From a virus: a DNA stretch of 61,171 nt. The stretch's first letter is position 1; each line of letters opens with the position of its first letter. The DNA lies in the IMG/VR virus record IMGVR_UViG_3300032753_002656, positions 1-61,171 of that record; one strand, 5' to 3'. The position numbers were made by a program, and so were the translations under genes. Below the pieces are notes generated by a model, which saw only the letters and a list, made by a program, of their open reading frames with translations, had not been told where the DNA came from and did no database searches. Of this stretch, positions 7,307 to 44,819 are shown in pieces.

Positions 7307-7324
7307 CCTATCCTGGATTATTAT

Positions 7325-7618: not shown

Positions 7619-7633
7619 ACACTAAAATTAGTA

Positions 7634-10389: not shown

Positions 10390-10665
10390 TTATATAGTTT
10401 CTGGATCTATCTCTGGCATGATATAAACTAACTGGTGATATACCAATTCAATATTATTTAGGGGAGCATCAACAATAGCAACTACTTCTGCATTTCTATA
10501 AAAATCCTCCTTCAAGTCAATATTAGTGGGATCTGATTCATTTTTCCAATCGGTATTATATTTTTTATATGCCGCTACCATTGCTTTATCATGGTGATCC
10601 TCCACTATTTTCCAAATTTGGTGAGCGGCATCGACAGAAAAATACATTACTATATGAACTTTCAT
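10390..10665 (-). CDS. Hypothetical protein
   Basis: 91 residues, alpha/beta, starting with a beta-strand VHIVMYFSVDAAHQIW and containing AEVVAIVDAPLNNIELVYHQLVY. No domain recognised and no membrane segment. Stop TAA lies within an ATATAAATA run just before the next gene. Confidence 0.55.
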   Translation of the reverse strand: MKVHIVMYFSVDAAHQIWKIVEDHHDKAMVAAYKKYNTDWKNESDPTNIDLKEDFYRNAEVVAIVDAPLNNIELVYHQLVYIMPEIDPETI

Positions 10666-10790
10666 AGTTAAAGTTTTGATATAAGTTCTATTTTCATTTC
10701 CTTCGGAATATCTAATAGTTTTAAAACTTTTTGTGAAACCGGAAATCTAACCTCTCTAATTTCTTTTACCCAATTATTAGATTAAATCTA

Positions 10791-11123
10791 CTAAAGGTTA
10801 TCATTTTTCTTATTTATAGGAGGATCAAATGATTTTGGTAAAATATCAACACCCATCTTTTTAGCCTGACGGACAATGATTGGAATTAAGATACTTGCTC
10901 CAGGAATGATAATGAAAGGAACTACAACACCCACAACTTTTAATGTGTCCCATAGTTGGGCCTTTAATATTTTTTCCTCATCATCCGTTATTTTACGATC
11001 TTTCATATACTTACCGATTATCTCGGCAGCCTCTTTTGTTCCTCTGGCCTCTTCCTTTATTCCTCGTACAAAATGGTGGGCATTCACTTCAATTTTCTGT
11101 ACTATTATTTCAAACATTCTCAT
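10791..11123 (-). CDS. LETM1-like membrane protein
   Basis: 110 residues. N-terminal helical region with FVRGIKEEARGTKEAAEI, then KITDDEEKILKAQLWDTLKVVG, one transmembrane segment VVVPFIIIPGASILIPIIV (about residues 73-91), then RQAKKMGVDILPKSF. The order (charged helix, short TM with P-G-x-x-x-x-P, K-x-x-G-I/V-D-x-L-P-x-S-F) is that of short LETM1-domain proteins common in Bacteroidota. Mitochondrial LETM1 contacts ribosomes and affects K+/H+ exchange; a phage role is unknown. It may act on the inner membrane or membrane-near ribosomes (inference). Confidence 0.75.
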   Translation of the reverse strand: MRMFEIIVQKIEVNAHHFVRGIKEEARGTKEAAEIIGKYMKDRKITDDEEKILKAQLWDTLKVVGVVVPFIIIPGASILIPIIVRQAKKMGVDILPKSFDPPINKKNDNL

Positions 11124-11137
11124 TGGAGCTTGAGGAA

Positions 11138-11491
11138 TTATTCCTCACCCATTTTATAGGCTTCTATTAATTCAAGATATTGAGGGTCTACAAATACTTT
11201 AACATTACTTGCATGAAATTCTGCTAATTTGGTAAGTTTGTTATGCTGGATAGCTAGTTTTCTTTCATGCTCTAAAGCCGCTGGCAATTTATTTTCTGCT
11301 GGTACTATAACACCTAAAGTTCCATCCTCGTTATAAGAGTGTAGGATGACTTTAGTTCCAGGACAAGAAACACCATAAGGTGCTCCTTCCTTTATCAGGT
11401 ATTCTCCCGGAGGGTATTTGGAAATAATTTCTTGTACACTTTCTGGCCTAGATCTTATCCATTCTAACCATTGCTCTTTTTTACTAGACAT
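11138..11491 (-). CDS. Hypothetical protein
   Basis: 117 residues. The N-terminal helix is W-rich (EQWLEWIRSRP), followed by a small beta unit (YPPGEYLIKEGAPYGVSCPGTKVILHSY) and a charged C-terminal helix. No known family. Overlaps the 11484 gene by 8 nt. Confidence 0.6.
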   Translation of the reverse strand: MSSKKEQWLEWIRSRPESVQEIISKYPPGEYLIKEGAPYGVSCPGTKVILHSYNEDGTLGVIVPAENKLPAALEHERKLAIQHNKLTKLAEFHASNVKVFVDPQYLELIEAYKMGEE

Positions 11492-12032
11492 ATCGTGCTT
11501 TTTTAAATAAATTATCGAATCTGCTTATTGTTGGGGTCTTTCCATCTGTATCTTCCCTGGGTTTAAGGTAGACACCCTCGATATACTCCCCTTTACTGTT
11601 TTTCTTTGTACCCATCTTATCAAAGATACGAGTTTCTGAATTCTCGATAGTTTCGAATGTAATCATCACGACCTCTTTTCTTTCCTTCGTCCTTTTGATT
11701 TCTTCGATGTCCATCTTGTTTTCTGGGTCTCCCTCCCATATCCAACCTTCTGTTATCATAGATATACAAAGTGGAGATACTCCTTGTTCTTCTAACTTAC
11801 TAAGTATTTGGGGAACAACAACATTTGTTAGCGCATCTTTTGTTGAACCATTCCTAAATAAATCATTAGGTATCGGAACTAAAACTAGTACTGGTTTTTC
11901 CTCGTTTGGATCCTGACATAATATATTAAAGACGGGAGAAATTTGGCTTGATTCAATAATCTCCTCGTTTGTTTGTTGGATGATGAATTTTTTAAATTTT
12001 TCTATATCCTCACGATTTCTTTCCGTAGACAT
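11484..12032 (-). CDS. Hypothetical protein, alpha/beta
   Basis: 182 residues. Strand KPVLVLVPIPNDLF, helix NVVVPQILSKLEEQ, strand CISMITEGWIWEG, then a charged stretch and EVVMITFETIENSETRIF. Resembles small phage proteins that assist nucleotide or stress functions only in general fold; no motif supports a role. The promoter element at 12052-12075 lies 19 nt upstream. Confidence 0.6.
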   Translation of the reverse strand: MSTERNREDIEKFKKFIIQQTNEEIIESSQISPVFNILCQDPNEEKPVLVLVPIPNDLFRNGSTKDALTNVVVPQILSKLEEQGVSPLCISMITEGWIWEGDPENKMDIEEIKRTKERKEVVMITFETIENSETRIFDKMGTKKNSKGEYIEGVYLKPREDTDGKTPTISRFDNLFKKARYV

Positions 12033-17444: not shown

Positions 17445-18956
17445 TTATTTATATAAACCAATCGACATACGATGGAGGGATTCGTTCCTGCCTAAAATTT
17501 CCATTGTTGTTAATAGATCTGGCCCAGGTATTCCCTTCCCTACCAATTTACGTAATTCTGGCATAATAAATTTCTCTTTCTCGCCATGCACAAGCGCTAC
17601 CTTATCAAGTATCTCTTTTATTTTATCCTTTTTCCAATCTAAATGATGTACGCTAAGTCCCAATTTAATAATATCCTGAAGCATAACCATTTCTGTAGTC
17701 CAAACTATAGGATTATTACCTTCTTCCTTTGGAGGTAATAATCCACGATTAAATATTTCTACTACCTTATTAAGATCTGAAAATAATACACTTCTGGCTT
17801 TGGCCAGATTAATAATTTGTTCTTGCTTTTCTTTGTTATCATTATAGAAAGGATCAATGTATACCTTATCCAAAAGAACTGAATTAGGAAGGATATTACT
17901 AATATATTGGCTATTGAAATATTTAGCTTTCTCAATGTCAAATTTAGCACCTCCAAGATGAACGTCTGATAGCTCAAACATTTCTATCATGTCTTCCATA
18001 GACATCATCTCATTATGTATTTTTGGAGTCCATCCTAAAAGGACTAAAAAGTTCAGTAGTGCGGAGGGATCATAGCCAAGCTCCATAAATCCATTACTTC
18101 CTACTACGGATCCGTCATCATTTATCATAACAGCATCCATTGGAAATACTGGTACTCCTAATTTGATAGCACTTCTTTTAGAAAGCTTACCCTTCCCATT
18201 AGGATTAAGTATTAGTGGAAGATGTGCAAATTCTGGTGTATCCCAGCCCATAGCTTCATAAATAAGATAATGGAGACCAAGGGATGAAAGCCATTCTTCT
18301 CCCCGAATAACATGAGTTGTCCCCATATCATGGTCATCCGCACAATTGGCAAGATGATAAGTTGGTATACCATCAGATTTAACAAGGACTTTATCATCCA
18401 TGTCATTTGTGTTATATTTAATTGGTCCCCTAATAATATCATTAACTATGAACTCTCGATTTTCTGGGGTTTTAAAACGAATGACATAAGGTCCATTTAG
18501 CATCTCCCTTACTTCATTTACATTCATAGTTAATGAGTTTCTCATTGTCATTCGAAACTTGGAATTATAAATGAAATTGGTATGTCCCTTTTCCCCCATA
18601 TTACTTAATCTCGCATTCTCAATATATTCGGGAGTATCGAAGGCATAGTAAGCATGGCCTGTTAGTAACAATTTGTTAATATGTTCAGTATAATCCCTTT
18701 CTGATTGACGATATTTTTTACAACCATCTATCCAAGGGGCAGCATCTGGTATAAGTCCAAACCATTCCAAAGAATTTTTGATATACTCCTCTGCATCAGA
18801 AACAAATCTTTTAGTATCAGTATCCTCAATACGAACATAAAAGGTTCCTTCGTGCTTTTTTGCGAAAAGGTAATTATATAATGCAGTCCTAATTCCTCCA
18901 ATATGGAGGAATCCGGTCGGACTTGGCGCGAAGCGGGTAACAACTTTTTTATTCAT
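17445..18956 (-). CDS. gltX: Glutamyl-tRNA synthetase
   Basis: 503 residues, full length for bacterial GluRS. HIGH motif in RFAPSPTGFLHIGGIRTAL (residues 8-26), VRIEDTDTKR (41-50), the acceptor-stem Zn-less region, HVIRGEEWLSS (215-225), and KMSKS-equivalent KLSKRS (257-262). The C-terminal anticodon-binding domain is complete. KLSKRSAIKLGVPVFP is of the Bacteroidota type. Activates glutamate and charges tRNA-Glu. Served by the promoter at 18977; together with AspRS, ArgRS-like and MetRS it forms an unusual phage synthetase set. Confidence 0.95.
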   Translation of the reverse strand: MNKKVVTRFAPSPTGFLHIGGIRTALYNYLFAKKHEGTFYVRIEDTDTKRFVSDAEEYIKNSLEWFGLIPDAAPWIDGCKKYRQSERDYTEHINKLLLTGHAYYAFDTPEYIENARLSNMGEKGHTNFIYNSKFRMTMRNSLTMNVNEVREMLNGPYVIRFKTPENREFIVNDIIRGPIKYNTNDMDDKVLVKSDGIPTYHLANCADDHDMGTTHVIRGEEWLSSLGLHYLIYEAMGWDTPEFAHLPLILNPNGKGKLSKRSAIKLGVPVFPMDAVMINDDGSVVGSNGFMELGYDPSALLNFLVLLGWTPKIHNEMMSMEDMIEMFELSDVHLGGAKFDIEKAKYFNSQYISNILPNSVLLDKVYIDPFYNDNKEKQEQIINLAKARSVLFSDLNKVVEIFNRGLLPPKEEGNNPIVWTTEMVMLQDIIKLGLSVHHLDWKKDKIKEILDKVALVHGEKEKFIMPELRKLVGKGIPGPDLLTTMEILGRNESLHRMSIGLYK

Positions 18957-19094: not shown

Positions 19095-19772
19095 ATGTAT
19101 AAAAGAAATTGTCATTCTTGTAATAAAGATATGGAATATAAAAATAAAAGAAAATATTATTTAGCAGAAAAAAATAATGGTATTTGTCAATCCTGCTCAA
19201 AAAAAGGAAAAAATAATCCAATGTTTGGTATTATTGGAATAAATAATTCTAGATATGGTAAACCGCAAGAAAATCTTAAAGGTGATAATAATCCTGCTAA
19301 AAGATCTGAAGTAAGAGCATTAATATCCGAAAGAAATAAAGGAAGGGTTTCCCCGATGAAAGGTAAGCACCACACAAATAAATCTATATCTGAAATATCA
19401 AAATCTAATTTAGGACAAAAAAGAGATCAGGAAACAATAGAAAAAATTAAAATTGCTAGAAGTAAGCAAATTGGAGAAAAATGTCCTGGGTGGAAAGGAG
19501 GTATTACTTTAACGATTAAAAATATTAGAAATTGTGATCATTATAAGAAATGGAGAATATTAGTAATAGAAAGGGATAATTATATCTGCCAAAAATGTAA
19601 ATTAAACAGCGCAAAATTAGAGGTCCATCATATAATTGGTGTACATGAAAGACTGGATTTAATTTGTAATCTATCTAATGGAATTACTCTTTGTAAGGAA
19701 TGCCATAATAAATTCCATAAAGAATATGGTCTTAAAAATTTTCCTGATATAAAGAAGGCTTGGAATTTATAG
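19095..19772 (+). CDS. HNH homing endonuclease with NUMOD3-type repeats
   Basis: 225 residues. N-terminal zinc-binding pairs (CHSC ... CQSC, residues 6-35). Then several NUMOD3-like DNA-binding motifs: KKGKNNPMFG, SRYGKPQENLKGDNNPAK, NKGRVSPMKGKHHT. C-terminal HNH nuclease: CQKCKLNSAKLEVHHIIG and NGITLCKECHNKFHKEYG. Free-standing homing enzyme, inserted on the plus strand between minus-strand genes; its 3' end overlaps the 19767 gene by 6 nt. Probably mobile between related phages. Confidence 0.88.
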   Translation: MYKRNCHSCNKDMEYKNKRKYYLAEKNNGICQSCSKKGKNNPMFGIIGINNSRYGKPQENLKGDNNPAKRSEVRALISERNKGRVSPMKGKHHTNKSISEISKSNLGQKRDQETIEKIKIARSKQIGEKCPGWKGGITLTIKNIRNCDHYKKWRILVIERDNYICQKCKLNSAKLEVHHIIGVHERLDLICNLSNGITLCKECHNKFHKEYGLKNFPDIKKAWNL

Positions 19773-20810
19773 CTCCCATTTTGTTTTATCAACTCCAATA
19801 AAAGATTTTATAGATTTTATTGCAGATGAACTAATATGTTCATATTCTTTATCACAAAATAAGGAAACAACTTGTATATTTTTGTTAAATTCTTGTAACC
19901 ATCTATATTGATTCAATTCATAGGATAGATCAGTACTATTTCGAATACCCCTGATAACAGTTAAAGGATAATCCTTAGTATTTAGGTAATCTGTAAGTAA
20001 ACCAGTATAATTATCTATTTGATACCTATCTTTAATAGGTGAAGGAAGATCTGTAATAATTGCTCCCTTCTTTTCTGGATTAACACCCCTGGAAATAATT
20101 ACTTTATCAAATATCATTTCCGCTTTTTCTATTATATTTAAATGACCAACCGTGAATGGATTAAAGCTTCCGGGATATGTTGCTATTTTAGGTTCCCAAA
20201 CAGAAAGTGTATTATAAGCAGCCTCAATATTCTTTTGTGCCTGATCCCCCATAAATGCAACCTTAGGACCATAGCTTTTAAAAAATTCCATTCGTCCCTT
20301 TCTAAAATCTGAAAAGTCTACCCAATAATATTCCTTCATAATTTGTTTGGTATTTTCCCAGAATTGCGGGAATGGAATAGTTAGCCTCTCCAGATCCGAT
20401 TTGATCATAATTTTAACATATTCAGGAAGGGATTCACTATAATTGTGCTCTTTAGTAGCAATAATCATTTCCTTGACCTTTGCTTCAATCCTTTGCCATT
20501 TTTCCCATTCTTCTGGGCTTTCTATTGAAAATGGACCAATTGCATGCTCGAATACGGCAAATGAATCTTCCTCATTTGTTTTAGATCTTGTGTCATAAAC
20601 AACATCGTGAAAAATAATCGCGAAATATAATGCGGCTTTATCCTCATCTGATAAACGGCTGCAATTAAGATCCGCATAATTCAGCATCTCTAATACATGC
20701 CAAAGGTTATGGTAATATCTATTACCCCCATTATACGAATCACACACATGTTTAATAACATCAGCGGGGAACTTAAAAAATTCTAAAATTTCTACTACTC
20801 TATTTTTCAT
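19767..20810 (-). CDS. HD-domain phosphohydrolase fused to a CoaD-type nucleotidyltransferase
   Basis: 347 residues, two domains. Residues 1-200: predicted HD hydrolase with YYHNLWHVLEML (H34, H38), FHDVVYD (H68-D69) and a later helix IIATKEH; this arrangement is common in uncharacterised bacterial HD proteins. Residues 208-347: phosphopantetheine adenylyltransferase-like domain with ATYPGSFNPFTVGHLNII (T/H nucleotide motif, G222-H223), VIRGIRNSTDLSYE and the ISSSAIKSI motif (326-334) that binds the triphosphate. CoaD makes dephospho-CoA from 4'-phosphopantetheine and ATP. The fusion could couple nucleotide hydrolysis and cofactor synthesis; the real substrates are unknown. Overlaps the upstream gene by 4 nt. 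Confidence 0.85.
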   Translation of the reverse strand: MKNRVVEILEFFKFPADVIKHVCDSYNGGNRYYHNLWHVLEMLNYADLNCSRLSDEDKAALYFAIIFHDVVYDTRSKTNEEDSFAVFEHAIGPFSIESPEEWEKWQRIEAKVKEMIIATKEHNYSESLPEYVKIMIKSDLERLTIPFPQFWENTKQIMKEYYWVDFSDFRKGRMEFFKSYGPKVAFMGDQAQKNIEAAYNTLSVWEPKIATYPGSFNPFTVGHLNIIEKAEMIFDKVIISRGVNPEKKGAIITDLPSPIKDRYQIDNYTGLLTDYLNTKDYPLTVIRGIRNSTDLSYELNQYRWLQEFNKNIQVVSLFCDKEYEHISSSAIKSIKSFIGVDKTKWEL

Positions 20811-23491: not shown

Positions 23492-24667
23492 TTAAACTTT
23501 TTCTATCTCATACATTCCCAATAACTTCATTCCATGTATTAGATCATCTAATAAAGGCTGGAATAATATTTGATTTTCTGGATTATCCTTAATATGATTA
23601 GTAATATATAATTGATTAATTAGTTTTGCATGCTCGACTAACTCATCAAATAACAAATTTGGAGCTATTAATGTTCTAGCCTTTAATAGCTTAAACTCTA
23701 AAACATTACTATTGAATTCTTCAATCCTCTGAGGTTTAAGTCCTGCAGATTTGATCCTTGCGAGAGTATAGCTAAGATACAAGCCAAAAGAAGTTTTGAC
23801 GTTATCAATTTGATTCATTTTAATATCCTTCATGGAAGATAGATCATATTTGAGTATATGACCACATAAAACATTCCATGTTAGATCAAAATCATTATTA
23901 AACTTCTCTTGTACTTGTTTTAGAATCTCTGCCATTAGAATAACATTTCCCTCTGACGATGACATTTTCTTCCCATCAACTGTTACCAAACCAAGCCCAA
24001 TATGTTTAATATCAGGAAACATATCCTTTAATAAAGAAAAATGCCCATTTTGCTCTAATCCCGTAACGTATAAGGTTGGAGAATTTAATTTAGTTGCTAA
24101 AGCTACATCCTGGTAAAAATATGTACTAACACCTGTTGATTTTAAACCTACTATTTTTTGATCCCCAATCTCAAATATTTTTGTCCCTTCATAGTCTCCT
24201 GTACCCTCTTTGAGAGAAGAAGAATCTAATGTTTGGGCAGAGGCGAAATAAATGTCGTCTATATAATAGTCATACTGCATACAATAATATTTATATGCCT
24301 TAAGAGCTTCATCCTTAGTAACAGAACCCTCCAAAGTGTCCCCTAAGATAGCAATAGTTTTTTCTGTAATTCCTAAACATTGTAATGTTTTGGCAATGAT
24401 CAAATTAGATAGATGCCCTAAATGGAGTTCCTTATTTAGGTTAGGACTAAAAAAATCTCCATATTTATAAATTTTAGGTTCCTCAAAAAGATCTTTAATA
24501 TTAACACCTAATGGTAGTGTGATATTATTGTACGGACCAGTAGATTGAATTTTTAAGCCCCAATATTTTATCCATTCTAGAATTTCTTCTGTTGGATCTC
24601 CATAAACAGAAAAACCAAAAGTTAAATTTTTTGGAACAAGCTTTATTTTATTTATGTTGAGCCTCAT
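23492..24667 (-). CDS. Arginyl-tRNA synthetase-like protein, short form
   Basis: 391 residues from the ATG at 24667. A TTG 24 nt upstream also opens the frame but lies inside the promoter. Class I core: FFSPNLNKELHLGHLSNLII (residues 72-91, HIGH motif as HLGH 82-85 in the ArgRS-type S-P-N-x-N-K-x-L-H-L-G-H context), TYFYQDVALATKL (182-194), and KKMSSSEGNVI (233-243) as KMSKS. SYTLARIKSAG (C-terminal part) matches the ArgRS anticodon-binding region. Typical ArgRS has about 550-580 residues, so the N-terminal additional domain and part of the C-terminus are missing or strongly reduced. May charge tRNA-Arg or a phage tRNA. Confidence 0.75.
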   Translation of the reverse strand: MRLNINKIKLVPKNLTFGFSVYGDPTEEILEWIKYWGLKIQSTGPYNNITLPLGVNIKDLFEEPKIYKYGDFFSPNLNKELHLGHLSNLIIAKTLQCLGITEKTIAILGDTLEGSVTKDEALKAYKYYCMQYDYYIDDIYFASAQTLDSSSLKEGTGDYEGTKIFEIGDQKIVGLKSTGVSTYFYQDVALATKLNSPTLYVTGLEQNGHFSLLKDMFPDIKHIGLGLVTVDGKKMSSSEGNVILMAEILKQVQEKFNNDFDLTWNVLCGHILKYDLSSMKDIKMNQIDNVKTSFGLYLSYTLARIKSAGLKPQRIEEFNSNVLEFKLLKARTLIAPNLLFDELVEHAKLINQLYITNHIKDNPENQILFQPLLDDLIHGMKLLGMYEIEKV

Positions 24668-24687
24668 TATTATAACTTTATTACATA

Positions 24688-24710
24688 GCAAATATAATAA
24701 AAAGTTTCTG
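24688..24710 (-). promoter_or_regulatory. Putative promoter (GAAAC-N7-TATATTTG)
   Basis: Minus-strand GAAAC, 7 nt, TATATTTGC: near-perfect form of the shared promoter. A TTTAAC-like site is farther upstream than in the 20-nt group. It would drive 24667 down to 19767. Confidence 0.65.
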
Positions 24711-26567: not shown

Positions 26568-27044
26568 CTATAAATTTTTATTAAACAAATTATTTATGGT
26601 TTCCCATTTTGAATATGTTGTATCAGTCTCACCCTCATATCGATTATATAGGGTCTGGAAATCCTTTGACATGTCCTCTATCCAATCCCATTCTCCTTTA
26701 TCCACTAAATCAAGAAAATAATTTAGTTGTTCGTGAGTTCCATATAAATGGTAAATTCTTGATAAATCTTCGTGGCTATATCTAAATCCATCAATTTTAA
26801 ATATGCCAAACTGACAATTTTCTTGATCCTCTGGCCAAATTGCATAGGTAAAATTACCTTTCCTAAACCAGATCATACCAAAGCCATGATTTCCAATTCC
26901 CTGATATCCACGTTTTATTAACTTATTTTTGATAATTTCTACTTCCTTCTTTAACCAATCAATTAACATTTCCTCGTGTATTTCATCGGGAACGCTAAAC
27001 ATATCACGAGTAAAGTCAGAAAAAACTATTTCATTATTTTCCAT
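26568..27044 (-). CDS. Hypothetical protein
   Basis: 158 residues, rich in Trp/Tyr/Asp. RGYQGIGNHGFGMIWFRKGNFTYAIWP and DKGEWDWIEDMSKDFQ are the most distinctive parts. No motif or membrane helix. Overlaps the start of the next gene downstream of 29826 by 11 nt. Confidence 0.55.
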   Translation of the reverse strand: MENNEIVFSDFTRDMFSVPDEIHEEMLIDWLKKEVEIIKNKLIKRGYQGIGNHGFGMIWFRKGNFTYAIWPEDQENCQFGIFKIDGFRYSHEDLSRIYHLYGTHEQLNYFLDLVDKGEWDWIEDMSKDFQTLYNRYEGETDTTYSKWETINNLFNKNL

Positions 27045-29826
27045 CTTTAGTTGTATTAAATAATCTAACAGGAGATTGAGGTTCCTTTAGAATATCACGA
27101 GCTCTCCTAAACGTTAAGGTTATACGATAATTAATCAAAGTTGTTTCTCCTACTTTATTACCACCTTCATCCCAAACAGGAACAATAATTGATTTAGTCT
27201 TAGTGTTTTGTGTATTTTCCGATACTCGATGGTTAAAAGTAAATCTGTTTACACCATTGATACCAAATGCGTATATTCCGCCATTTTTAATTACTAAGCT
27301 ATTAATCTTTTCTGGATTTTTTTCAAAAACAGAATAAGTATTTTCATTTAAATCATATTTAGTTTCATCTGAAAAATCTGTATGGTACATTAAACTTCCT
27401 TCGGCACCTAAATTTATAACAACAACCGGATAATTTTTTGCGGTAATACTTTCTGTTATATCTCTATGCTGGTGTATAAAAGATCCAGGTTCGTAAATAT
27501 TAGCAAGAACCGAATCATAATCTTTCAAATCAATTCCTAATTTTTCTTGTATGAAATTCATGATTGGTTGAAGCTTCTTTATACTCGGTAAAGGCTTGTT
27601 ATTTTGGTCCGTTACATAATATCCATACCCATCATATTTGGCCGGTGCCTTTATAACAACTCTTCCTGGCCTTTGTTGTAATCCTAATTTTCTCTGATAA
27701 CTTTTTTCTGACTCATTTGGAATATTCTTAGCCCATCTTAGGCCGAAGGAAAACATTCTATTAGCAGTATAAGCTCGGTTCTCAACATATGCTTGATTAA
27801 GTATTTGTGGCTGTAAGAGGTCTATAAAATTATTAGCTTCCTCTAAAGAGAGACCAGTATCTGCTATATTTTCAACACCAGGATAAGGTGAATAAATTTT
27901 ATCAGAACCTTTGGGCTCTTCTTGTTTTGTTGATTGGGATAAAGCATATGTACACTTAGAAGACCTAGACATAGCTACATACATCTCCGAATTTAGGTTT
28001 TCTATTTTATCGGGGCTTTCCTTTAAACGATTTCTCCAATAATGATTTCTCCCTTCGATATTATCCAGATCAACAATAGTATTTTCATAAGTAGCTCCTT
28101 GGGATTTATAAGCAGTTATAGCATAACCATAATCTATGGATTTTTCTTTAAACAAAGATGCTTTCCTTTTTGTTATTTCAACAAATTCTAAAATTTGTTC
28201 GTAAGTTAGCCTCTTATCTGCTAATCTCATCTTAACATTTCTTTCAATCTCGCTTTCACTAATTAGTTTATTATTATAACGATAAATGTTTTCATTTGTT
28301 TGTAAAGTAGCACTAAGTAATTTCAATGCGCTTTCTATTGGAAGTATTTTTTCTCGCCAAAATTCTTTTCTTTTCTTATACTCTAGCTTCTTTTGTTCTT
28401 TTTTAAGAGCCTCTACTCTATCATAGAGGAGATTGAATAATTCACCAGTCCTATCAAATTCTTTGACGTGATCCGGATCCTTCATATCAAAGATAAACAT
28501 TATCATCTTTACTGGATCAAATATACTATCACTCTCTGTAATTTCTAAGGTATAGGGAATAAGTGATAAGTCCTTCTTCCCCAATTCAGATAGCATACGA
28601 GCAATTTGCTGTTTACCACTATTAAGTGTACCTAAAGTAAAATCATCCAAGCCAACCTTTTGTCCATTTTTAAGGGTAGTATTAACCATTTCTAATAATC
28701 CAATAGGTTCTGTCTTAATAGAATTTACAATATACTCCTGGGAATTATAAAATATTTCTACACTTTGGGAATAACCCATAAGTGTATCTCCGACGCTATA
28801 TGAATATTCACCAACATCAAGACCAAGAAGGCCTCTTACCATTTTGTTGTATTGGGAAACCTTTTCATTAGACTTTGCCACTATTTTAACAAATGCCCTA
28901 TTTTCTTGGTATTTTGGATCTGTATACAATTTAGTAATTATATCACCGATTGTATTTGAGTAAATGATCCCCTCCCCATCGGGACCTACTCTAGTTAGAT
29001 ATGACAGGGGTGAGTGTACACTGCGTATATTGTTGCGTAGCTCTGTTAATTCCTCTATTAAAGGATTATCTTTGCCCGTGCGCATTACCTCCCTTAAACC
29101 GACAGAATGCGTTACATTATGTGAACTAAAAAGGGGAGATAATTTTTGGGTTCCTGGATTTCTTAATTGTGCTGGATCCCCCATAACAATAACAGGGATC
29201 ATACGGGAGTAGTATTTTACTTTCTCTATTTCTCCTGGATCCGATATCATCGATACTTCATCAATTACCCAAAGGGAAACAACAGGAACCCCGCTTTTAA
29301 CTAATTTACTATACCCAGCAGTAGCTTCTATATCTTTAGTATATTCCATACCACCATGAGTATTAAGAACTAATTGTGTTTGGAAAGCTGCTTGTGTAGT
29401 AAATGTTCTAGCTTTGAAAAATTCTCTGGCATTAGGACCAGAGATATAGTCTACTAGTTTTTGATTAAATTTATTCCGAACCTGCATAGTTCGGATTGAT
29501 TTAAATAGTTGCTTTCTTGCTTGGTGTGAGGGGGCAGAAATGGCAAATCCCTTACCTATTTTCTTACTATCTACTAGATATTGTAGAAAAAATTTAATAA
29601 CAGAGGTTTTTCCAACTCCAGCAAATCCCTTGACAAGAAATATGTTATCCTCTCCAGTTCTATTTTTTCTGGTATCCCACCAATGATATAACTCTTCCAA
29701 TAACTTTTCCTGCTGAGAAGAAAGACCTTTTGGAAATGGTATATCAATAATACATCCATCTGGAAATTTATATTGATGTTTTTCCCGAATTATTTCTACT
29801 ATTTTATCTTTTGATGGCTCTACCAT
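27034..29826 (-). CDS. Dda-type helicase fused to an AlkB-like 2-oxoglutarate/Fe(II) dioxygenase
   Basis: 930 residues with two enzyme modules. Residues about 35-640 are an SF1B (RecD/Dda) helicase: Walker A GFAGVGKTS (67-75), DEVSM (189-193), GDPAQLRNPG (216-225), and the C-terminal motif YAITAYKSQGATYENTIVD (568-586) with VAMSRS (617-622). Residues about 720-910 look like an AlkB-family dioxygenase: NIYEPGSFIHQHRD with Fe ligands H787-x-D789, distal H866 in FTFNHRV, and 2-oxoglutarate-binding R in NYRITLTFRR (R901/R907). No other residue is obviously missing. T4 Dda opens duplex DNA at forks; AlkB removes alkyl groups from bases. The fusion suggests repair or base modification tied to unwinding. 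It overlaps its neighbours by 7 and 11 nt. Confidence 0.9.
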   Translation of the reverse strand: MVEPSKDKIVEIIREKHQYKFPDGCIIDIPFPKGLSSQQEKLLEELYHWWDTRKNRTGEDNIFLVKGFAGVGKTSVIKFFLQYLVDSKKIGKGFAISAPSHQARKQLFKSIRTMQVRNKFNQKLVDYISGPNAREFFKARTFTTQAAFQTQLVLNTHGGMEYTKDIEATAGYSKLVKSGVPVVSLWVIDEVSMISDPGEIEKVKYYSRMIPVIVMGDPAQLRNPGTQKLSPLFSSHNVTHSVGLREVMRTGKDNPLIEELTELRNNIRSVHSPLSYLTRVGPDGEGIIYSNTIGDIITKLYTDPKYQENRAFVKIVAKSNEKVSQYNKMVRGLLGLDVGEYSYSVGDTLMGYSQSVEIFYNSQEYIVNSIKTEPIGLLEMVNTTLKNGQKVGLDDFTLGTLNSGKQQIARMLSELGKKDLSLIPYTLEITESDSIFDPVKMIMFIFDMKDPDHVKEFDRTGELFNLLYDRVEALKKEQKKLEYKKRKEFWREKILPIESALKLLSATLQTNENIYRYNNKLISESEIERNVKMRLADKRLTYEQILEFVEITKRKASLFKEKSIDYGYAITAYKSQGATYENTIVDLDNIEGRNHYWRNRLKESPDKIENLNSEMYVAMSRSSKCTYALSQSTKQEEPKGSDKIYSPYPGVENIADTGLSLEEANNFIDLLQPQILNQAYVENRAYTANRMFSFGLRWAKNIPNESEKSYQRKLGLQQRPGRVVIKAPAKYDGYGYYVTDQNNKPLPSIKKLQPIMNFIQEKLGIDLKDYDSVLANIYEPGSFIHQHRDITESITAKNYPVVVINLGAEGSLMYHTDFSDETKYDLNENTYSVFEKNPEKINSLVIKNGGIYAFGINGVNRFTFNHRVSENTQNTKTKSIIVPVWDEGGNKVGETTLINYRITLTFRRARDILKEPQSPVRLFNTTKDGK

Positions 29827-30446
29827 AAATTTAATTGATCCTCTTTAGGTGGAACTAATAATTCACCAAGTCCATACATTAATTGGCTTGTTTCGTCGCC
29901 CTGAAAAGTAAAAGGGTTTTTATCTCCATCACAGAGTTTTTCTGTCCTCTTGATTAGAAATTCTCGGAGGAGAAGATTTTCCAAAAAATTAGTATAAACC
30001 TTATGAAGGCCTAATCCAGAATAAATGAGATCTAATTCAATGTTACCTTTACCATTAGTTCTAATTAATGGTGTTCCTATTATGCCAGGAGTTAAAATCC
30101 TTCTAACGTTATACTCATAATAATAACCAACATTGTATTCTATTAGGTATGAGATTTTTTTATTAAGTATTGGTGTTACTCCGATGAAAAGATCGCTAGT
30201 TTCTTTAATACCCGGATATGAAACCACAATTTTAGAGGTAATATTTTTCATACGAGAACCACTATAAACAAAATCCTCCATAACAAATGTAGGTATTGGT
30301 ACTTGGAATAAATCCATCGTTAAAATATCTAATCCACCATGTGTTTCTTTCAAAACATCATTGGTGTGTAGAAGTATAATCCTTGTTGCTATTTCTGGTT
30401 TCATTCGGTCCAGATCATTCATTTTAAATCTGGCCATAGTTATCAT
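29820..30446 (-). CDS. Hypothetical protein
   Basis: 208 residues, mostly beta (KIVVSYPGIKETSDLFIG, YLIEYNVGYYYEYNVRRILTP) with a C-terminal helix. No cysteines or catalytic motif recognised. Lies between the helicase fusion and MetRS with 4-7-nt overlaps. Confidence 0.55.
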   Translation of the reverse strand: MITMARFKMNDLDRMKPEIATRIILLHTNDVLKETHGGLDILTMDLFQVPIPTFVMEDFVYSGSRMKNITSKIVVSYPGIKETSDLFIGVTPILNKKISYLIEYNVGYYYEYNVRRILTPGIIGTPLIRTNGKGNIELDLIYSGLGLHKVYTNFLENLLLREFLIKRTEKLCDGDKNPFTFQGDETSQLMYGLGELLVPPKEDQLNLW

Positions 30447-31864
30447 GGTATCTTTTCAAATAAGATTACTTTTTTCCTTTCTCTTAATGCTTTATCTATA
30501 ATCTCTGCTTTATTCGGGAACACTGGAACGTATAATCTTGAAACTGTCCAGATCAAATGATAGCAATCGCTTAATATTCTTTTTACTCTCTCCGGATCTG
30601 TTTCTGACCAAGGCTTATGATCGTTAATGTATTTATTTCCATAAGAAACTAATTCTGCTGTTCTTGCCAATGCTTCTTTTATTTGAAACTTATTCCAAAG
30701 ATCCGTTATATTTTTTTCCCCATCTACTAAAATTTTAAAAAAGTCTGGTGTTACAGAAGTAAAATATTCCCCTTCGCATTTTGTATCCATTAAATGTAAT
30801 ACCCTGGATATAAAATTACCCCATGAATTACAAATATCAGCATTAAATTTCAATCTTAGATCTTCCTCATTCCAGCTAGAGTCAGAGTAAGTGGATAATC
30901 CAGCCAAAGCGTAATATCTAACTGCATCCAGGCCAAATTTATTTAGTTGATCTATCGGGTCTATTACATTACCCTCTGTTTTGGACATTTTTTTACCATT
31001 ACTATCCACTATAGTTCCATGAACTAATAATTTATTTGTTTTCCTAAAATGTAATGCATCCAACATTCCCTGGAATATAATAGCCTGAAATCTGAGATTG
31101 TCTGGACCGCATATTTGGATGATATTAGTATCTTCGTGATTCCACAATTCGTTTGCTGCAATAACATAATTAAGTAATGCATCAAACCAAACGTATATGA
31201 CATGTTCAGGATCATCAGGTACTTCAACACCCCATGGGCATTTTGCTTTTAGTCGGGATATTGAAATATCTCCGGTCTCTTCGATCATATTGATCAATTC
31301 CCCCCTTTTATATTGAGGCTCTAGAAAAGATGGACTATTTTTAAGCCAAGTTAGAAGTTTTTCTTTGTGATCTCCAAGCCTAAAGAAATAATTTTCTTCT
31401 TCAACCTCATCTAAAGTAAGTGTATGATGATCCGGACATTTACCATCAACAAGTTCTTTATCCTGCTTAAATGATTCACACCCCACACAATATAGAGATT
31501 TGTAAGGCTTTTTATAAATTTCATTACGCCCCATAAAAACATGCCAAAATCCCTGGACAAATTCATGATGTTTTGGATCTGATGTTAAGTAGAAATTGTC
31601 ATACTTAATATCAAACTTACCACAAAAATCTTTCCATATAGGTTCTAGGGTCTTAATATACTCATGTGGTGTAATACCAAGCTCGTCTGCTTTTTGTTTT
31701 ATTTTTGTACCATGGCAATCTAATCCAGTATTAAAAAAAACTTCATTATTTTCCAGCCTAAAGTATCTGGTGATAGCGTCACCTAATACAAATTCGAACA
31801 TATGACCTATATGAGGTATAGAATTTGCATATGGTAAAGTAGTTGTTAAGAATATTTTTCCCAT
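30443..31864 (-). CDS. metG: Methionyl-tRNA synthetase
   Basis: 473 residues. HIGH motif TTLPYANSIPHIGHMFEFV (8-26), knuckle zinc site CVGC ... CPDH (126-129 and 143-146), KMSKTEGNVIDP (292-303), and a C-terminal helical anticodon-binding domain (YINDHKPW). It lacks the C-terminal dimerisation domain that many bacterial MetRS carry. Charges tRNA-Met, initiator included. Short overlap with the previous gene. Confidence 0.95.
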   Translation of the reverse strand: MGKIFLTTTLPYANSIPHIGHMFEFVLGDAITRYFRLENNEVFFNTGLDCHGTKIKQKADELGITPHEYIKTLEPIWKDFCGKFDIKYDNFYLTSDPKHHEFVQGFWHVFMGRNEIYKKPYKSLYCVGCESFKQDKELVDGKCPDHHTLTLDEVEEENYFFRLGDHKEKLLTWLKNSPSFLEPQYKRGELINMIEETGDISISRLKAKCPWGVEVPDDPEHVIYVWFDALLNYVIAANELWNHEDTNIIQICGPDNLRFQAIIFQGMLDALHFRKTNKLLVHGTIVDSNGKKMSKTEGNVIDPIDQLNKFGLDAVRYYALAGLSTYSDSSWNEEDLRLKFNADICNSWGNFISRVLHLMDTKCEGEYFTSVTPDFFKILVDGEKNITDLWNKFQIKEALARTAELVSYGNKYINDHKPWSETDPERVKRILSDCYHLIWTVSRLYVPVFPNKAEIIDKALRERKKVILFEKIP

Positions 31865-39361: not shown

Positions 39362-39528
39362 CCCCTTATTGGACCTGCAACCCTTCTTCCTGTAATTGAT
39401 TGACTCTCGAGAAAAGAAATCCTTTTCTCGAGAGTTTTAATATATTGTAAAAGTGCAACAAATCCTTCTTGAGAATGGTCAGGGTCCTCGATCATTCCTA
39501 ATATGTCTTTTTCTAATTGCTTATCCAT
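39358..39528 (-). CDS. 56-residue coiled-coil protein, antisense to a terminator
   Basis: ATG at 39528 shares its A with the stop of the 39528-40919 gene (TAATG), and the frame ends with TAG at 39358-39360, touching the end of the plus-strand CHAP gene. MDKQLEKDILGMIEDPD, then LLQYIKTLEKRISFLESQS, a short coiled coil, then a G-R-R-x-x-G-P end. The hairpin at 39403-39435 lies within it. The overlap-style start supports translation; it might also be an accidental frame. Confidence 0.5.
   Translation of the reverse strand: MDKQLEKDILGMIEDPDHSQEGFVALLQYIKTLEKRISFLESQSITGRRVAGPIRG
39403..39438 (+). terminator. Rho-independent-type terminator after the CHAP gene
   Basis: A perfect 14-bp inverted repeat (ACTCTCGAGAAAAG and its complement, 39403-39416 and 39422-39435) with a 5-nt loop runs directly into TTTT. 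It is the strongest intrinsic terminator signal in the window and points in the plus direction. Confidence 0.75.
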
Positions 39529-40919
39529 TATTGGAATTCTGTTTTTACAACACTATTAATAATATAACTAGTTTTCTTAACCATTTCTGGCCCTAAGGAG
39601 TTAACTATACAATTATAGTCATAAAGATGTCGGGTATCATGATATATTCCAACCCCTATAGTTACAAAACCATCTCTTCTACATTTTTCTACTATTCTTT
39701 TTAAGTTATCTACATCCCTTTTACTGCCATAAGAATTTCCACAAGGCTCTCCGTCAGAAAGAACTATAAAAATAATGTTATCCTCTGTGTATTCACGAAC
39801 CTTCTCATAAATAGCTTCAATAACAGGTCCATCATAATTTTCACTCTTAGCCCTCATTGTTTCAATAGAATCATTGAAATTGTCATGATATGGATCCTTA
39901 TAGACATAGATCACTGGATGGTATCCACCGCTATGGCCGTAAACACTTAACTTATTTTTAGGTAAAATTTCGCTGAAAGCCAAATACATAGTTTTCACAA
40001 CATCAATTGCACATTTCATTTTTCCTCCCATACTACCAGATTCATCAACAAGTATAACTACACTGAAAGGCTTTGTTGTTTGATTTGGTTCAACCTTATA
40101 ATAAATATTAAGGTTCCCTGCAATAACTTCTCCGACCTTCCGTTGGTCAAATTTACCAGCTCTTAATGAATTTAAACGGTCTATACTAGGATCGAAATTA
40201 ATATCTAATAATTGAACTAATGTTTTTGCATTCCTTTCTTGTTCTGCTGTAAATGGTTTTATTGAAGGGGATCCCTTAGGATATTGCCAGGTAGTATTTC
40301 TTTTTAATTCCCCACTAATATTAGGTGCTTGTGGCTTTTCTCTTTTTTTAGTTTCTCCTAAAGTACCAGATAGAATTTTTTCTATTCTCCTCGTTAATTG
40401 TTCAGCAGTCTCTTTTTTAGGTTTAGATTTTTTACTATCCTTATCATTTTTATCCTCTCCCTCTTTTGGATCAGAATCACCCTCCCCATCACTACTTGTT
40501 GATTCCTCCTCTGGAGGGGGAATCTTAACCATTATATCAGTAGTTAAAATTGTTTCGGTGTAATGTAGGAATAAGGATCTATATTCTTTTTCCTGTCTAA
40601 TCAAGGTTTCCAAAACTGCTCTCTGTGAATCCTTGTTACAAACAGCAAATTTATCATCGCTAAATCCCCAAAAGCCTTTTCTTGTAACAATTTTTGGATC
40701 TTGTGAAAGAGCTTCTATTAATCCATATTCCTTCGATTTAACAAGAAAGATATCTATAAGCTTAGAACCTGTGTAATAACTCAGGTCCTTATGCTTATGG
40801 ATATCATATTCTACATCCATCCCAGTATGAACGTCTGGATGGTCTATAATTAAACCCTTATATCCTCCATAGAAGGATGACTCCCATTTCGTGGAGCTAA
40901 AAATATTATCTTTCCTCAT
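39528..40919 (-). CDS. VWA-domain protein of a MoxR/VWA pair (copy 2)
   Basis: 463 residues. C-terminal VWA domain with MIDAS motif VDESGSMGG (D292-E-S-G-S296), later VLSDGEPCG for the third metal ligand. The N-terminal part (YYGGYKGLIIDHPDV-like start) is shared with 42138. An acidic Ser/Glu/Lys linker (about 136-175) separates them. The protein pairs with the AAA+ ATPase 40938-42110. Such CobS/CobT- or MoxR/VWA-like pairs act as remodelling or metal-insertion machines in bacteria; here the target is unknown. Confidence 0.85.
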   Translation of the reverse strand: MRKDNIFSSTKWESSFYGGYKGLIIDHPDVHTGMDVEYDIHKHKDLSYYTGSKLIDIFLVKSKEYGLIEALSQDPKIVTRKGFWGFSDDKFAVCNKDSQRAVLETLIRQEKEYRSLFLHYTETILTTDIMVKIPPPEEESTSSDGEGDSDPKEGEDKNDKDSKKSKPKKETAEQLTRRIEKILSGTLGETKKREKPQAPNISGELKRNTTWQYPKGSPSIKPFTAEQERNAKTLVQLLDINFDPSIDRLNSLRAGKFDQRKVGEVIAGNLNIYYKVEPNQTTKPFSVVILVDESGSMGGKMKCAIDVVKTMYLAFSEILPKNKLSVYGHSGGYHPVIYVYKDPYHDNFNDSIETMRAKSENYDGPVIEAIYEKVREYTEDNIIFIVLSDGEPCGNSYGSKRDVDNLKRIVEKCRRDGFVTIGVGIYHDTRHLYDYNCIVNSLGPEMVKKTSYIINSVVKTEFQ

Positions 40920-40937
40920 CTTATTGGGTTTAATTAA

Positions 40938-42110
40938 TTAAGCATCTTCGTCATCTTCATCATCTCCATAATCTTCATCATCTCCATAATCTTCATCAGG
41001 TTCAGGTATAGGAGAAATAACAGGGATAGATTTAGCACCCTTTGTAGATAAAATGGATTCAATAGATTTTAATCCTTCCTTCGAAGCTAATCCCTTACAT
41101 AAAGTGTAATATCCATCATAGATGGTAAATCCATCCTGTACAAGGGATGTAATAAGCTTCAAGTGACGGAAGCTTAATCCAAAGCTAATAGTAAATTCTT
41201 CGTTAGCTTTGTTGATTTTTTCATAGATGTCAACTATTACAGTAATATCAGTGAAAGCTACCCTTGGGTAAATGTATTTAAGGATCTTTTCAATTTGATT
41301 CTTTTTTAAAGAATCCATTTCCAATAGCATAAATCTATCCAAAAGAGCTCTATCAATTTTAGACGTGCCTGAATATTGGCTACCAATATTTGCGGTGGCA
41401 AAAAATACACAATTTGGATGAATAGCAATTGGGGCCGAATCATTGAATGCATATTCCATATTAAGCTCTCTTCTAAAATCTAAACATGGAAAGAGTAAGT
41501 TATTAGCTTGTAGGGATGCCCGGCTTAGCTCGTCCAATAAAACAATACCCGGTTTTTGTATTACTTCAGAAAATCTAGACTTAATGAATTTAGAAACTGT
41601 AACACCATCCTGGACTTGGATAGTATTCGTTCCAACTAAACCCATAATTGGATCTGTCATAGTACCCATGTCAAAAATTGTTAATGGAATCCCCAAATGT
41701 TTAGCCATATGGTAAACTAATTCGGTTTTACCAAATCCAGTTGGTCCTAATAGGAGTGTATTTTCCTTTTTAAGAATGTTCCTCCTTAGAATTTGATAAG
41801 TACCTTTATGGATTTTAAAAAATCCATCCAAAGTAATAAATCCATCAGTATCTGCAGTTGGGGTTTTTTCTCTTCCAACTAAGACCTCCGCTTTTTTTCG
41901 TTTAGTCGTCTTAGTTTTACTAACTGCTGGTGCGGGAATGCTATTCAGATCACGGTCAACCCAGGCAACAACTGATTTTGGAGTAGGAGTACCCTTTTTT
42001 GCAGAGGGGGGAGCTACTTTTTTTACAGTTGTTGGTGCTGGAGCAGCCTTCTTGGTAGCGGGTACCGTCTTGACGGATTCCGCCCGTCTTGTTTTAATTA
42101 ATCTTGGCAT
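40938..42110 (-). CDS. MoxR/CobS-like AAA+ ATPase (copy 2)
   Basis: 390 residues. Low-complexity Lys/Ala/Pro N-terminus, then Walker A LLLGPTGFGKTEL, Walker B IVLLDELSRAS, an insert KSRFSEVIQKPG, sensor CVFFATANIGSQYSGT, and DRFMLLEMD. The ATPase core is nearly identical to the 43812 gene. A strongly acidic C-terminus (repeated D-E-D-Y-G-D) follows. Works with the VWA protein next to it (inference from the usual pairing). Confidence 0.9.
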   Translation of the reverse strand: MPRLIKTRRAESVKTVPATKKAAPAPTTVKKVAPPSAKKGTPTPKSVVAWVDRDLNSIPAPAVSKTKTTKRKKAEVLVGREKTPTADTDGFITLDGFFKIHKGTYQILRRNILKKENTLLLGPTGFGKTELVYHMAKHLGIPLTIFDMGTMTDPIMGLVGTNTIQVQDGVTVSKFIKSRFSEVIQKPGIVLLDELSRASLQANNLLFPCLDFRRELNMEYAFNDSAPIAIHPNCVFFATANIGSQYSGTSKIDRALLDRFMLLEMDSLKKNQIEKILKYIYPRVAFTDITVIVDIYEKINKANEEFTISFGLSFRHLKLITSLVQDGFTIYDGYYTLCKGLASKEGLKSIESILSTKGAKSIPVISPIPEPDEDYGDDEDYGDDEDDEDA

Positions 42111-42137
42111 AGATAAGTTTATTTAAATGTTAACTTT

Positions 42138-43808
42138 TTATTGGAATTCTGTTTTGACAACCTTGTTGATAATATGGCTAGTTTTTTTAATCATCTCATC
42201 ACCAAGACTTTTAATTACACAGGAGTAATTATATAGATCAGGATCGTTGAAATGTAATATACCCAAACCAACTGTTACAAATCCATCTCTTCTGCATTTT
42301 TCTAAGACTTTTTTCATTGCAGATACAGCCTCTTCTCCACCATAACCGCTGCCACAAGGCTGCCCATCAGATAGAGTAATGAAGATAATATTATCATCAG
42401 TCATTCCCCTAACCTTATCATAAACTGCTTCTATAGCTGGCCCATCATAGTTAGAGTCACGGGCATCAATACTTTCGATCCTTTCTTCAAATCGTTGATT
42501 GTATTTGTCTTGATAAACAAATACTTCAGGTATTTCGTCGCCGCTGTGTCCGTAGACGTAAATTTTATCCTGTGGAAGTATTTCGGAGAAGGCTAGGTAT
42601 AGGGTTTTTAGAATGCTCTTACTATAATCTATTTTATAGTGCTCGCTCATACTACCTGACTCATCTTGTAGTATTACAACACTAAATGGCTTAGTTGTTT
42701 GGTTCTCTTCGTGTGTATAATACACATTCATATTACCAGGAATAACTTCAGCCACCTTTCGGGGATCTAATTTGCCCATTCTTAGTGAATTAATTCTATC
42801 AGTCGCAGGATCAAAGTTGATGTCTAAGAGTTTTACAAGCCTATTAGCAAAAGCATACTCATTATCGCTAAACTTGCATTTTACTCGATCCCTCGGATGT
42901 ATGAATTTGGTATTTTTAACTAAATTACCGTTCAGATGATGACTAACGATTTCTCTTTTCTTGATATCCCCTAAGAAAGCTCTAAGATCTCCACGGGCCC
43001 TTTTAATTTCTTCGGTCCTATTAGAAATCTTATTATTTAACTTCCCCTCCATACGTTCAGGATTTCTAGTACCATCATCCTCCGCTTCACCCTCGGTTTC
43101 TTCTCCATCTTCGTCACCATCCTCATCTCCGGAACCCCCCGAACCTTGGCTCTCCTCCTTTTCTTTCTCTTCTTTGTCATTTTCACCAGAACCGCCAGAA
43201 CTATTTTCTGTCTGCTCCTCTCCTTCCTCATTGCCCTTCTCCTTTTTCTGTTTACCAGATTCACCCTTTTCACTTTGTTCGTCATCATTCTTCTCTCCCT
43301 CTTGTTCTCCAGTACCAGATCCCATTGGGGGTGGTTTAGGAGAACTCGGGGGAGGAAGAGGAATACTGATTTCTGCAGTTTTTATTACTTTAGCATAGTT
43401 GATAAAAAGAGCTTTATGTTCAGGTGATAATTCACAAATTTCGTCAAAGACTTGCTCTAAGGATTTTTTTGTTACCATCAATACCTCTTTCTTCATCCAA
43501 AAAGAAGATATTTCCGTAACTTGAGCATTATTTGCTAATCTATCAAAAAAATTAAACTCCTTTACTTTTAGAAGAAAAATCTTCATTAGCTTATCCCCGG
43601 TCCACCAGCTTAAACCCATGGAATCTTTTACTTTTACGTCCAACTGATACGATACCTGAACTTCCGGATGATCGGTAATCAAATTATAGTAGCCCCCATA
43701 ATAGGAGGTTTCCCACTTGGAGCTACTATAATAATTTGGTGTAGTTGGCGCATAGAACTTTTTAACTTTGTTTGGCTCATAGAACCTTTTAACTTTGTTT
43801 TTGTCCAT
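42138..43808 (-). CDS. VWA-domain protein of a MoxR/VWA pair (copy 1, with long acidic linker)
   Basis: 556 residues. The N-terminal SSKWETSYYGGYYNLITDHPE region matches copy 2. Residues about 150-260 are an extremely Glu/Gly/Ser/Asp-rich linker. VWA core: QDESGSMSE (MIDAS D382-E-S-G-S386), ITLSDGQPCG, and NYDGPAIEAVYD. The C-terminus IINKVVKTEFQ is the same as in copy 2 (IINSVVKTEFQ), which confirms duplication of the whole gene. Near-identical N-terminal KVKxFY repeats occur twice (residues 5-9 and 14-18). Confidence 0.85.
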   Translation of the reverse strand: MDKNKVKRFYEPNKVKKFYAPTTPNYYSSSKWETSYYGGYYNLITDHPEVQVSYQLDVKVKDSMGLSWWTGDKLMKIFLLKVKEFNFFDRLANNAQVTEISSFWMKKEVLMVTKKSLEQVFDEICELSPEHKALFINYAKVIKTAEISIPLPPPSSPKPPPMGSGTGEQEGEKNDDEQSEKGESGKQKKEKGNEEGEEQTENSSGGSGENDKEEKEKEESQGSGGSGDEDGDEDGEETEGEAEDDGTRNPERMEGKLNNKISNRTEEIKRARGDLRAFLGDIKKREIVSHHLNGNLVKNTKFIHPRDRVKCKFSDNEYAFANRLVKLLDINFDPATDRINSLRMGKLDPRKVAEVIPGNMNVYYTHEENQTTKPFSVVILQDESGSMSEHYKIDYSKSILKTLYLAFSEILPQDKIYVYGHSGDEIPEVFVYQDKYNQRFEERIESIDARDSNYDGPAIEAVYDKVRGMTDDNIIFITLSDGQPCGSGYGGEEAVSAMKKVLEKCRRDGFVTVGLGILHFNDPDLYNYSCVIKSLGDEMIKKTSHIINKVVKTEFQ

Positions 43809-43811
43809 AAA

Positions 43812-44819
43812 TTATTTTTTGTGTGAGGAAAGAATTGAGTCTATTGATTTTAGGCCTTCTTTACCTGCTAGTCCCTTACACAAGGTGTAATAAGAATCAT
43901 AGATAGTAAATCCGTCCTGCACAAAAGAAGCTACTTCCCTTAAATGACGGAATGAAAGACCGAAGCTAATTGTGAAATCCTCATTAGCCTTGTTGATTTT
44001 TTCGTAAATAGAAACCATTGTGGAAATATCATCATCACTAACTGAAGGGTAAGTGTATTTGATAACTTCTTTTATCTGACCTGTTGCTAATGTATCCATT
44101 TCAATAAGGATAAAGCGATCAAGTAATGCACGGTCCATTTTATTTGTACCTGAATACTGACTACCTATATTAGCTGTTGCAAATATTACACATTCAGGAT
44201 GAAGCTTAATAGGTTCTGAATCATTGAATGCGTATTCCATGCTTAATTCACGCCTGAAGTCTAAGCATGGAAAAAGCAAGTTGTTAGCTTGTAGGGATGC
44301 ACGGCTTAGCTCGTCCAAAAGAATAATACCAGGCCTTTGTATAGCAGAAGAGAAACGGGATTTAATAAATTTAGAAACAGTAACACCATCTTCAACTTGA
44401 ATAGTATTAGTTCCTACAAGGCCCATAATCGGATCTGTCATAGTACCCATGTCAAAAATTGTTATAGGAACCCCCAAGTGCTCTGCCATATTGTGGACAA
44501 GCTCTGTTTTACCATAGCCAGTAGGCCCAAGGATTAACGTGTTCTTTTTCTTTTCTATGTTCCTACGAAGGATTTTATATGTCCCTTCATGGACCTTAAA
44601 AAATCCGTTCAAGGTAACAAATCCATTAGCATCTTTTCTTGGAACAGGAATTGTTTTTGCTTCTTTAACTGATGCTACTACGGATGCTACTGCAGCAGCC
44701 TTTGCAGTGGAGTCTTTTGCTCCCTCCGTTATTTGGAGATCCGCATCAATAAACATTTCCTCTTTGGATTTTACCGTGATACTTCCCGGTGACATTGGTG
44801 TTGCTGGTGTTGTTGACAT
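43812..44819 (-). CDS. MoxR/CobS-like AAA+ ATPase (copy 1)
   Basis: 335 residues. NTLILGPTGYGKTELVHNM (Walker A), IILLDELSRASLQ (Walker B), CVIFATANIGSQYSG (sensor 1), LDRFILIEMD. It shares TIFDMGTMTDPIMGLVGTN and GVTVSKFIKSRFS with copy 2. Lacks the acidic tail of copy 2. Gene order is ATPase-VWA-ATPase-VWA, so the pair was duplicated as a unit. Confidence 0.9.
   Translation of the reverse strand: MSTTPATPMSPGSITVKSKEEMFIDADLQITEGAKDSTAKAAAVASVVASVKEAKTIPVPRKDANGFVTLNGFFKVHEGTYKILRRNIEKKKNTLILGPTGYGKTELVHNMAEHLGVPITIFDMGTMTDPIMGLVGTNTIQVEDGVTVSKFIKSRFSSAIQRPGIILLDELSRASLQANNLLFPCLDFRRELSMEYAFNDSEPIKLHPECVIFATANIGSQYSGTNKMDRALLDRFILIEMDTLATGQIKEVIKYTYPSVSDDDISTMVSIYEKINKANEDFTISFGLSFRHLREVASFVQDGFTIYDSYYTLCKGLAGKEGLKSIDSILSSHKK

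Follow-up and report, generated by a model that had tools for sequence, protein, structure and literature searches.

A Dda-like SF1 helicase of a probably very large phage appears to have gained an AlkB-type Fe(II)/2-oxoglutarate dioxygenase as an in-frame C-terminal addition, and we assign a probability of roughly one half to the reading that this AlkB module removes alkyl groups from DNA in step with its opening by the helicase. In this scheme, replicating phage DNA would be opened by the helicase, and the dioxygenase tethered to it would act on the bases just exposed, removing by oxidation their small alkyl groups (as in N1-methyladenine, N3-methylcytosine or similar) and clearing these lesions before they block the phage polymerase. 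Catalysis, substrate, DNA rather than RNA as the target and the coupling of the two activities are the parts of the scheme that we infer. The fusion was found in no other phage searched and is absent from the closest relative, which suggests that this phage has linked an enzyme for base cleaning to the motor by which single strands of DNA are exposed.

The fusion gene and its closest relative

In the window, i.e. the whole analysed stretch of 61,171 nucleotides, ORF analysis placed the fusion in an uninterrupted frame of 930 aa on the minus strand (Table 1); a reading of the plus strand in the same interval, 27034-29826, is ruled out by 60 stops. The original prediction had given exactly these coordinates but did not state the strand.

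Residues 31-600 match PHROG 325, 'Dda-like helicase', in a profile search (E=4.5e-43), the Pfam models AAA_30, AAA_19 and Viral_helicase1 all exceed their cut-offs in the helicase part, and T4 Dda (3upu) was found among solved structures (E=0.006). All signature SF1 motifs of T4 Dda and the PHROG 325 helicases are common to the fusion protein, namely GFAGVGKT, DEVS and GDPAQ (Table 1) together with AYKSQG (residue 572) and AMSRS (residue 618), and the residues of Walker A and of motifs II, III, V and VI are intact. For the signature motifs, which are those that were checked, the earlier claim of a complete motif set in residues 67-622 is correct. Compared with T4 Dda and the PHROG 325 helicases, the helicase part is larger, about 640 aa, whereas most relatives have roughly 370-510 aa, and it is followed by a C-terminal AlkB module, which occurs in none of 42 other Dda-like helicases sampled from IMG/VR. 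Most of these 42 proteins end 15-20 residues past the start of motif VI.

Table 1. Coordinates of the fusion gene, its domains and motifs, and related features in the window and in other records.
Feature	Position	Strand	Basis
Dda-like helicase/AlkB-type dioxygenase fusion gene, 930 aa	27034..29826	-	ORF and domain searches
Helicase part, residues 1-636; 86% identical to the complete 641-aa L001 helicase	27919..29826	-	
Walker A GFAGVGKT, residues 67-74	29605..29628	-	sequence
Motif II DEVS, residues 189-192	29251..29262	-	sequence
Motif III GDPAQ, residues 216-220	29167..29181	-	sequence
Motif VI YVAMSRS, residues 616-622	27961..27981	-	
AlkB module, residues 649-913, PGVEN to LTFRRARDI; common to L003 and L008	27088..27882	-	
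Pfam 2OG-FeII_Oxy_2 match, residues 730-907	27106..27639	-	
Predicted Fe(II) ligands H787-x-D789	27460..27468	-	alignment with E. coli AlkB
Predicted Fe(II) ligand H866	27229..27231	-	alignment with E. coli AlkB
R901-x5-R907, corresponding to the AlkB R204/R210 pair	27106..27126	-	alignment with E. coli AlkB
Segment of ~870 nt absent from L001	27059..27932	-	blastn
GluRS, ArgRS-like (short, 399 aa), MetRS (473 aa)	17445-18956, 23492-24691, 30443-31864	-	
Giant crAss-like proteins with AlkB module	L008:133-10323; L003:129-8804		DFDID motif
Giant protein of the crAss-like phage cr50_1, with Dda-like helicase	L030:4826-19150		DFDID motif

The closest relative found, L001 (IMGVR_UViG_3300020716_000012, a 46.8-kb record), has the neighbouring genes in the same order, and its helicase, which is 86% identical, stops at 641 aa without the AlkB module. 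The flanking blastn matches break 875 nt apart in the window versus 5 nt in L001. The extra segment is in frame at the 3' end of the helicase gene, where it sits between the helicase end and an overlap with the next gene that is common to L001. An AlkB-family match was not found elsewhere in the 46.8-kb record. Since both L001 and all 42 other Dda-like helicases are without the module, its gain in the lineage of the window is the simpler reading, with loss in L001 as a possible alternative in a comparison that rests on two genomes. Together with the two relatives of the module that occur elsewhere (see below), this pattern points to a mobile AlkB module that was placed on a helicase here. In L001, homing endonuclease-like ORFs recognised by eye (5305-5940 and 10655-11572) flank the helicase gene; the window is without them at this place.

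The fusion comes from one metagenomic contig, which would fit an assembly artefact joining two genes. However, both junctions are in frame, neither the stop codon nor the overlap with the following gene is lost, the synteny with L001 continues on either side, the G+C content is similar (0.34 in the helicase part, 0.32 in the AlkB module and 0.33 in the whole window), and a homologous module is fused in two other contigs too. An artefact was rejected on synteny, reading frame and homologous modules and is, in our opinion, very improbable. Because the syntenic relative lacks exactly the AlkB segment and homologous modules occur elsewhere, the fusion is to be regarded as genuine and not misread. 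The same two observations, together with the profile matches of both domains, bear out the helicase-AlkB architecture that had been proposed from the sequence.

The AlkB-type module and its predicted active site

Residues 730-907 match the Pfam family PF13532 (2OG-FeII_Oxy_2, the family of AlkB) with E=4.7e-11 and 43.7 bits versus a curated cut-off of 31.2. In a comparison of profiles (HHalign), the module profile, built from the fusion module and its two relatives, matched an AlkB profile of eight proteins (E. coli AlkB and seven from viral records) with a probability of 95% and E=3.7e-8, a similarity well beyond what chance would give. Among solved structures, the nearest by sequence is the 2OG-Fe oxygenase 5xeg (E=7e-4). 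The mean pLDDT of AlphaFold models was low, 32.1 for the module and 31.1 for the whole protein, because only 3-4 related sequences exist for the alignment.

The ligands H787, D789 and H866 are located as had been predicted, and the expected R-x-x-L-T-F-R-R end was found as R901-I-T-L-T-F-R907-R908. In the alignment with E. coli AlkB, the residues N120, Y122, H131 and D133 correspond to N776, Y778, H787 and D789, and E136, H187, R204 and R210 to E792, H866, R901 and R907, so that every iron and main 2-oxoglutarate ligand is kept. The stretch before the core is similar as well (GYGYYVTDQNNKPLP in the module, GYLYSPIDPQTNKPWP in AlkB), with GYxYxxxD...NKPxP common to both. Two active-site residues are changed, D135 to T791 and N206 to T903, of which D135 is a base-contacting residue in AlkB. 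Because of these changes, the substrate of the module may differ from that of AlkB. The NCBI equivalog model NF011930 (DNA oxidative demethylase AlkB) gave 15 bits versus a cut-off of 267, and we therefore do not regard the module as an orthologue of the E. coli-type AlkB. It belongs to the same 2OG-Fe(II) family as E. coli AlkB and the standalone AlkB proteins of phages (~180-215 aa in Caulobacter phages Cr30 and CcrColossus, Xanthomonas phage XacN1 and Salicola phage SCTP-2) and has HxD...H and the R-x5-R end in common with them, but it is fused, constitutes a separate family of small size and departs from them at D135 and N206.

Between the module and its relative in L003, pN is 0.27 and pS 0.72, a value of pS near saturation, from which only the direction counts. 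The smaller number of replacement than silent changes points to purifying constraint on the module, and such constraint was seen on both parts, helicase and module. The conserved catalytic residues and the lower level of replacement changes argue that the module is probably functional.

The differences from the active site of AlkB leave room for another substrate. The module could remove or rewrite an epigenetic or defensive base mark, or hydroxylate a base for a modified phage genome, instead of acting in repair. A resetting of methyl marks has been proposed for the sporadic AlkBs of jumbo phages (PMC7824862), and the distribution of the module is sporadic here too. However, no modification or defence gene was recognised next to the fusion, and the match is to AlkB, with no TET/JBP family reported in the domain search. 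Such an activity on base marks appears rather improbable to us. The link to modified-base defence that had been suggested finds no support in the neighbourhood, where only MetRS and an M23 peptidase were recognised; defence-related roles for the fusion are possible.

Module relatives and phage context

Pattern scans with the module or its parts, which reach only fairly close relatives, detected two relatives among 2.9 million viral contigs, L003 (62% identical) and L008 (52% identical), and none beyond these. Scans of this kind found no fairly close relative in bacterial and archaeal genomes, and tblastn found none in 50,697 phage records. Both relatives carry the module close to the end of a giant ORF, the two open frames having 4,749 and 4,694 codons. 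This ORF contains a DFDID motif and is similar to the catalytic subunit of the RNA polymerase in Cellulophaga phage phi14:2 and in crAss-like phages. A DprA-like domain precedes the module in L008; a NADAR domain after it, suspected by eye, gave no Pfam match even at E=5. A giant protein of the same kind in the crAss-like phage cr50_1 has DFDID at about residue 3157 and a C-terminal Dda-like helicase with Walker A at residue 4275. Hence, as judged from sequence, the AlkB module and the Dda helicase each appear as C-terminal cargo of giant proteins in unrelated, crAss-like phages and are joined to each other in the window.

Three observations would fit a passenger, i.e. a captured domain with folding and activity of its own and no functional coupling to unwinding: in crAss-like phages the module is attached to a very different protein, L001 manages without it, and all 42 of the other Dda-like helicases are without it. 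However, the sequence constraint on the module is kept, and each of the three contexts in which the module was found joins it to a DNA-opening enzyme, which fits the preference of AlkB for single-stranded DNA; we consider an uncoupled passenger improbable. The virion RNA polymerase of the giant proteins in L003 and L008 would be another DNA-opening machine and as such counts for coupled dealkylation as the best explanation, but cleavage or separate folding of these giant proteins is possible and would weaken the argument of an attachment to a motor. We tentatively consider it possible, without holding it probable, that a small phage-specific AlkB family serves as a plug-in module that was repeatedly attached to DNA-opening enzymes, in the window to a replication helicase and in crAss-like phages to the injected virion RNA polymerase, clearing template lesions or marks at opening.

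The MetRS of the window is 53% identical to that of a phage of 634,780 bases, and terminases similar to that of the window occur in Sphingomonas phage PAU and Tenacibaculum phage PTm1; the source is probably a very large phage, of which the window would be a 61-kb fragment. AlkB was not found in three phages of 634-642 kb (two nearest by MetRS, one near by terminase), nor in PAU and PTm1. The ORF of the terminase large subunit, 55791-56801 (+), has only 336 aa and matches the ATPase half of longer terminases, and a GIY-YIG endonuclease-like ORF (by eye) lies just upstream, at 53955-54878; the terminase gene may be split. Other observations in the window concern a 347-aa protein that joins a weak HD-like domain to a cytidylyltransferase-like one (19767-20810, -), a run of small, apparently paralogous ORFs of ~100 aa ending in FERIK or WERIK (6022-7933, -), and a MoxR-like AAA ATPase gene with a CobT/VWA-like gene, the pair being duplicated in tandem (39528-44819, -).

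The main rival of DNA dealkylation is an action of the module on RNA (tRNA or phage mRNA), i.e. an RNA-repair or tRNA-modifying dioxygenase riding on the helicase, because AlkB has a precedent on RNA and RNA genes are present in the window. These genes encode GluRS, MetRS, an ArgRS-like protein, an RNA ligase and a polynucleotide kinase, and the absence of the base-contacting D135 would also be in line with RNA. However, T4 Dda-type helicases act on DNA, the RNA genes except MetRS are not near the fusion, and a Pfam search found no ALKBH8-like RNA-binding or methyltransferase domain in the fusion protein. As for the precedent, both E. coli AlkB and ALKBH3 have RNA among their substrates (PMC544882; PMC5304225), and the replicase polyprotein of plant flexiviruses holds AlkB with a helicase (PMC544882). 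On balance, an RNA substrate seems unlikely.

Unwinding-coupled dealkylation and known systems

Single strands are the preferred substrate of AlkB enzymes and the product of a Dda-type helicase. In human cells, the ASCC3 helicase supplies single-stranded DNA to ALKBH3 (PMC7608686). Based on the preference for single strands and on this precedent, unwinding-coupled demethylation seems to be the most plausible reading. In a 194-kb phage (L051:3989-6219), a standalone AlkB gene of 184 aa lies ~0.5 kb downstream of a Dda-like helicase on the same strand, with one small ORF between them, and this proximity is consistent with the proposed coupling. However, an annotated helicase was found beside the standalone AlkB gene in none of six other phage records examined; hence, the AlkB-helicase linkage is not general in phages. 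Module and helicase occur together in one genome only, for which reason a co-selection cannot be shown.

Phage AlkB, Dda helicases, a combination of AlkB with helicase in a plant RNA virus polypeptide (PMC544882) and the helicase-AlkB principle in human cells are already known. The databases and papers searched contained no description of the fusion itself, of its clean boundary or of a module common to crAss-like RNA-polymerase proteins. The original prediction knew of no described phage protein of this architecture, and indeed none was found among the 50,697 phage records; our literature search, which covered papers outside subscription, found none that names AlkB with a Dda helicase or with crAss-like phages. 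If the two activities are coupled, the protein would represent a single-chain form of helicase-assisted direct base repair, a process so far reported for activities on separate proteins. It would also be a compact model in which to study how unwinding provides a dealkylase with substrate, with L001, which is without the module, as a ready-made natural control. Moreover, the link to the crAss-like virion RNA polymerase would suggest that some phages give base damage on incoming or replicating DNA a dedicated, motor-bound enzyme.

Among known systems, JBP2, which helps to make base J in kinetoplastids, is a SNF2 ATPase fused to a TET/JBP dioxygenase and thus also combines a DNA motor and a base-oxidising dioxygenase in one protein, but its motor belongs to SF2 and its dioxygenase to TET/JBP and not to AlkB. 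The crAss-like giant RNA-polymerase proteins of L003 and L008 hold the nearest relatives of the AlkB module; there, however, it is joined to a virion RNA-polymerase protein whose open frame spans ~4,700 codons, and AlkB and Dda helicase occur together in none of L003, L008 and cr50_1. The flexivirus replicase resembles the fusion in having AlkB and helicase in one viral polypeptide (PMC544882), but flexiviruses are RNA viruses with a methyltransferase and an RNA polymerase in the same chain, and both the helicase and the AlkB are different. In the human ASCC3-ALKBH3 system, a helicase feeds single strands to an AlkB enzyme as proposed for the fusion (PMC7608686), but with two separate proteins and a Ski2-type 3'-to-5' helicase, which is not homologous on the helicase side.
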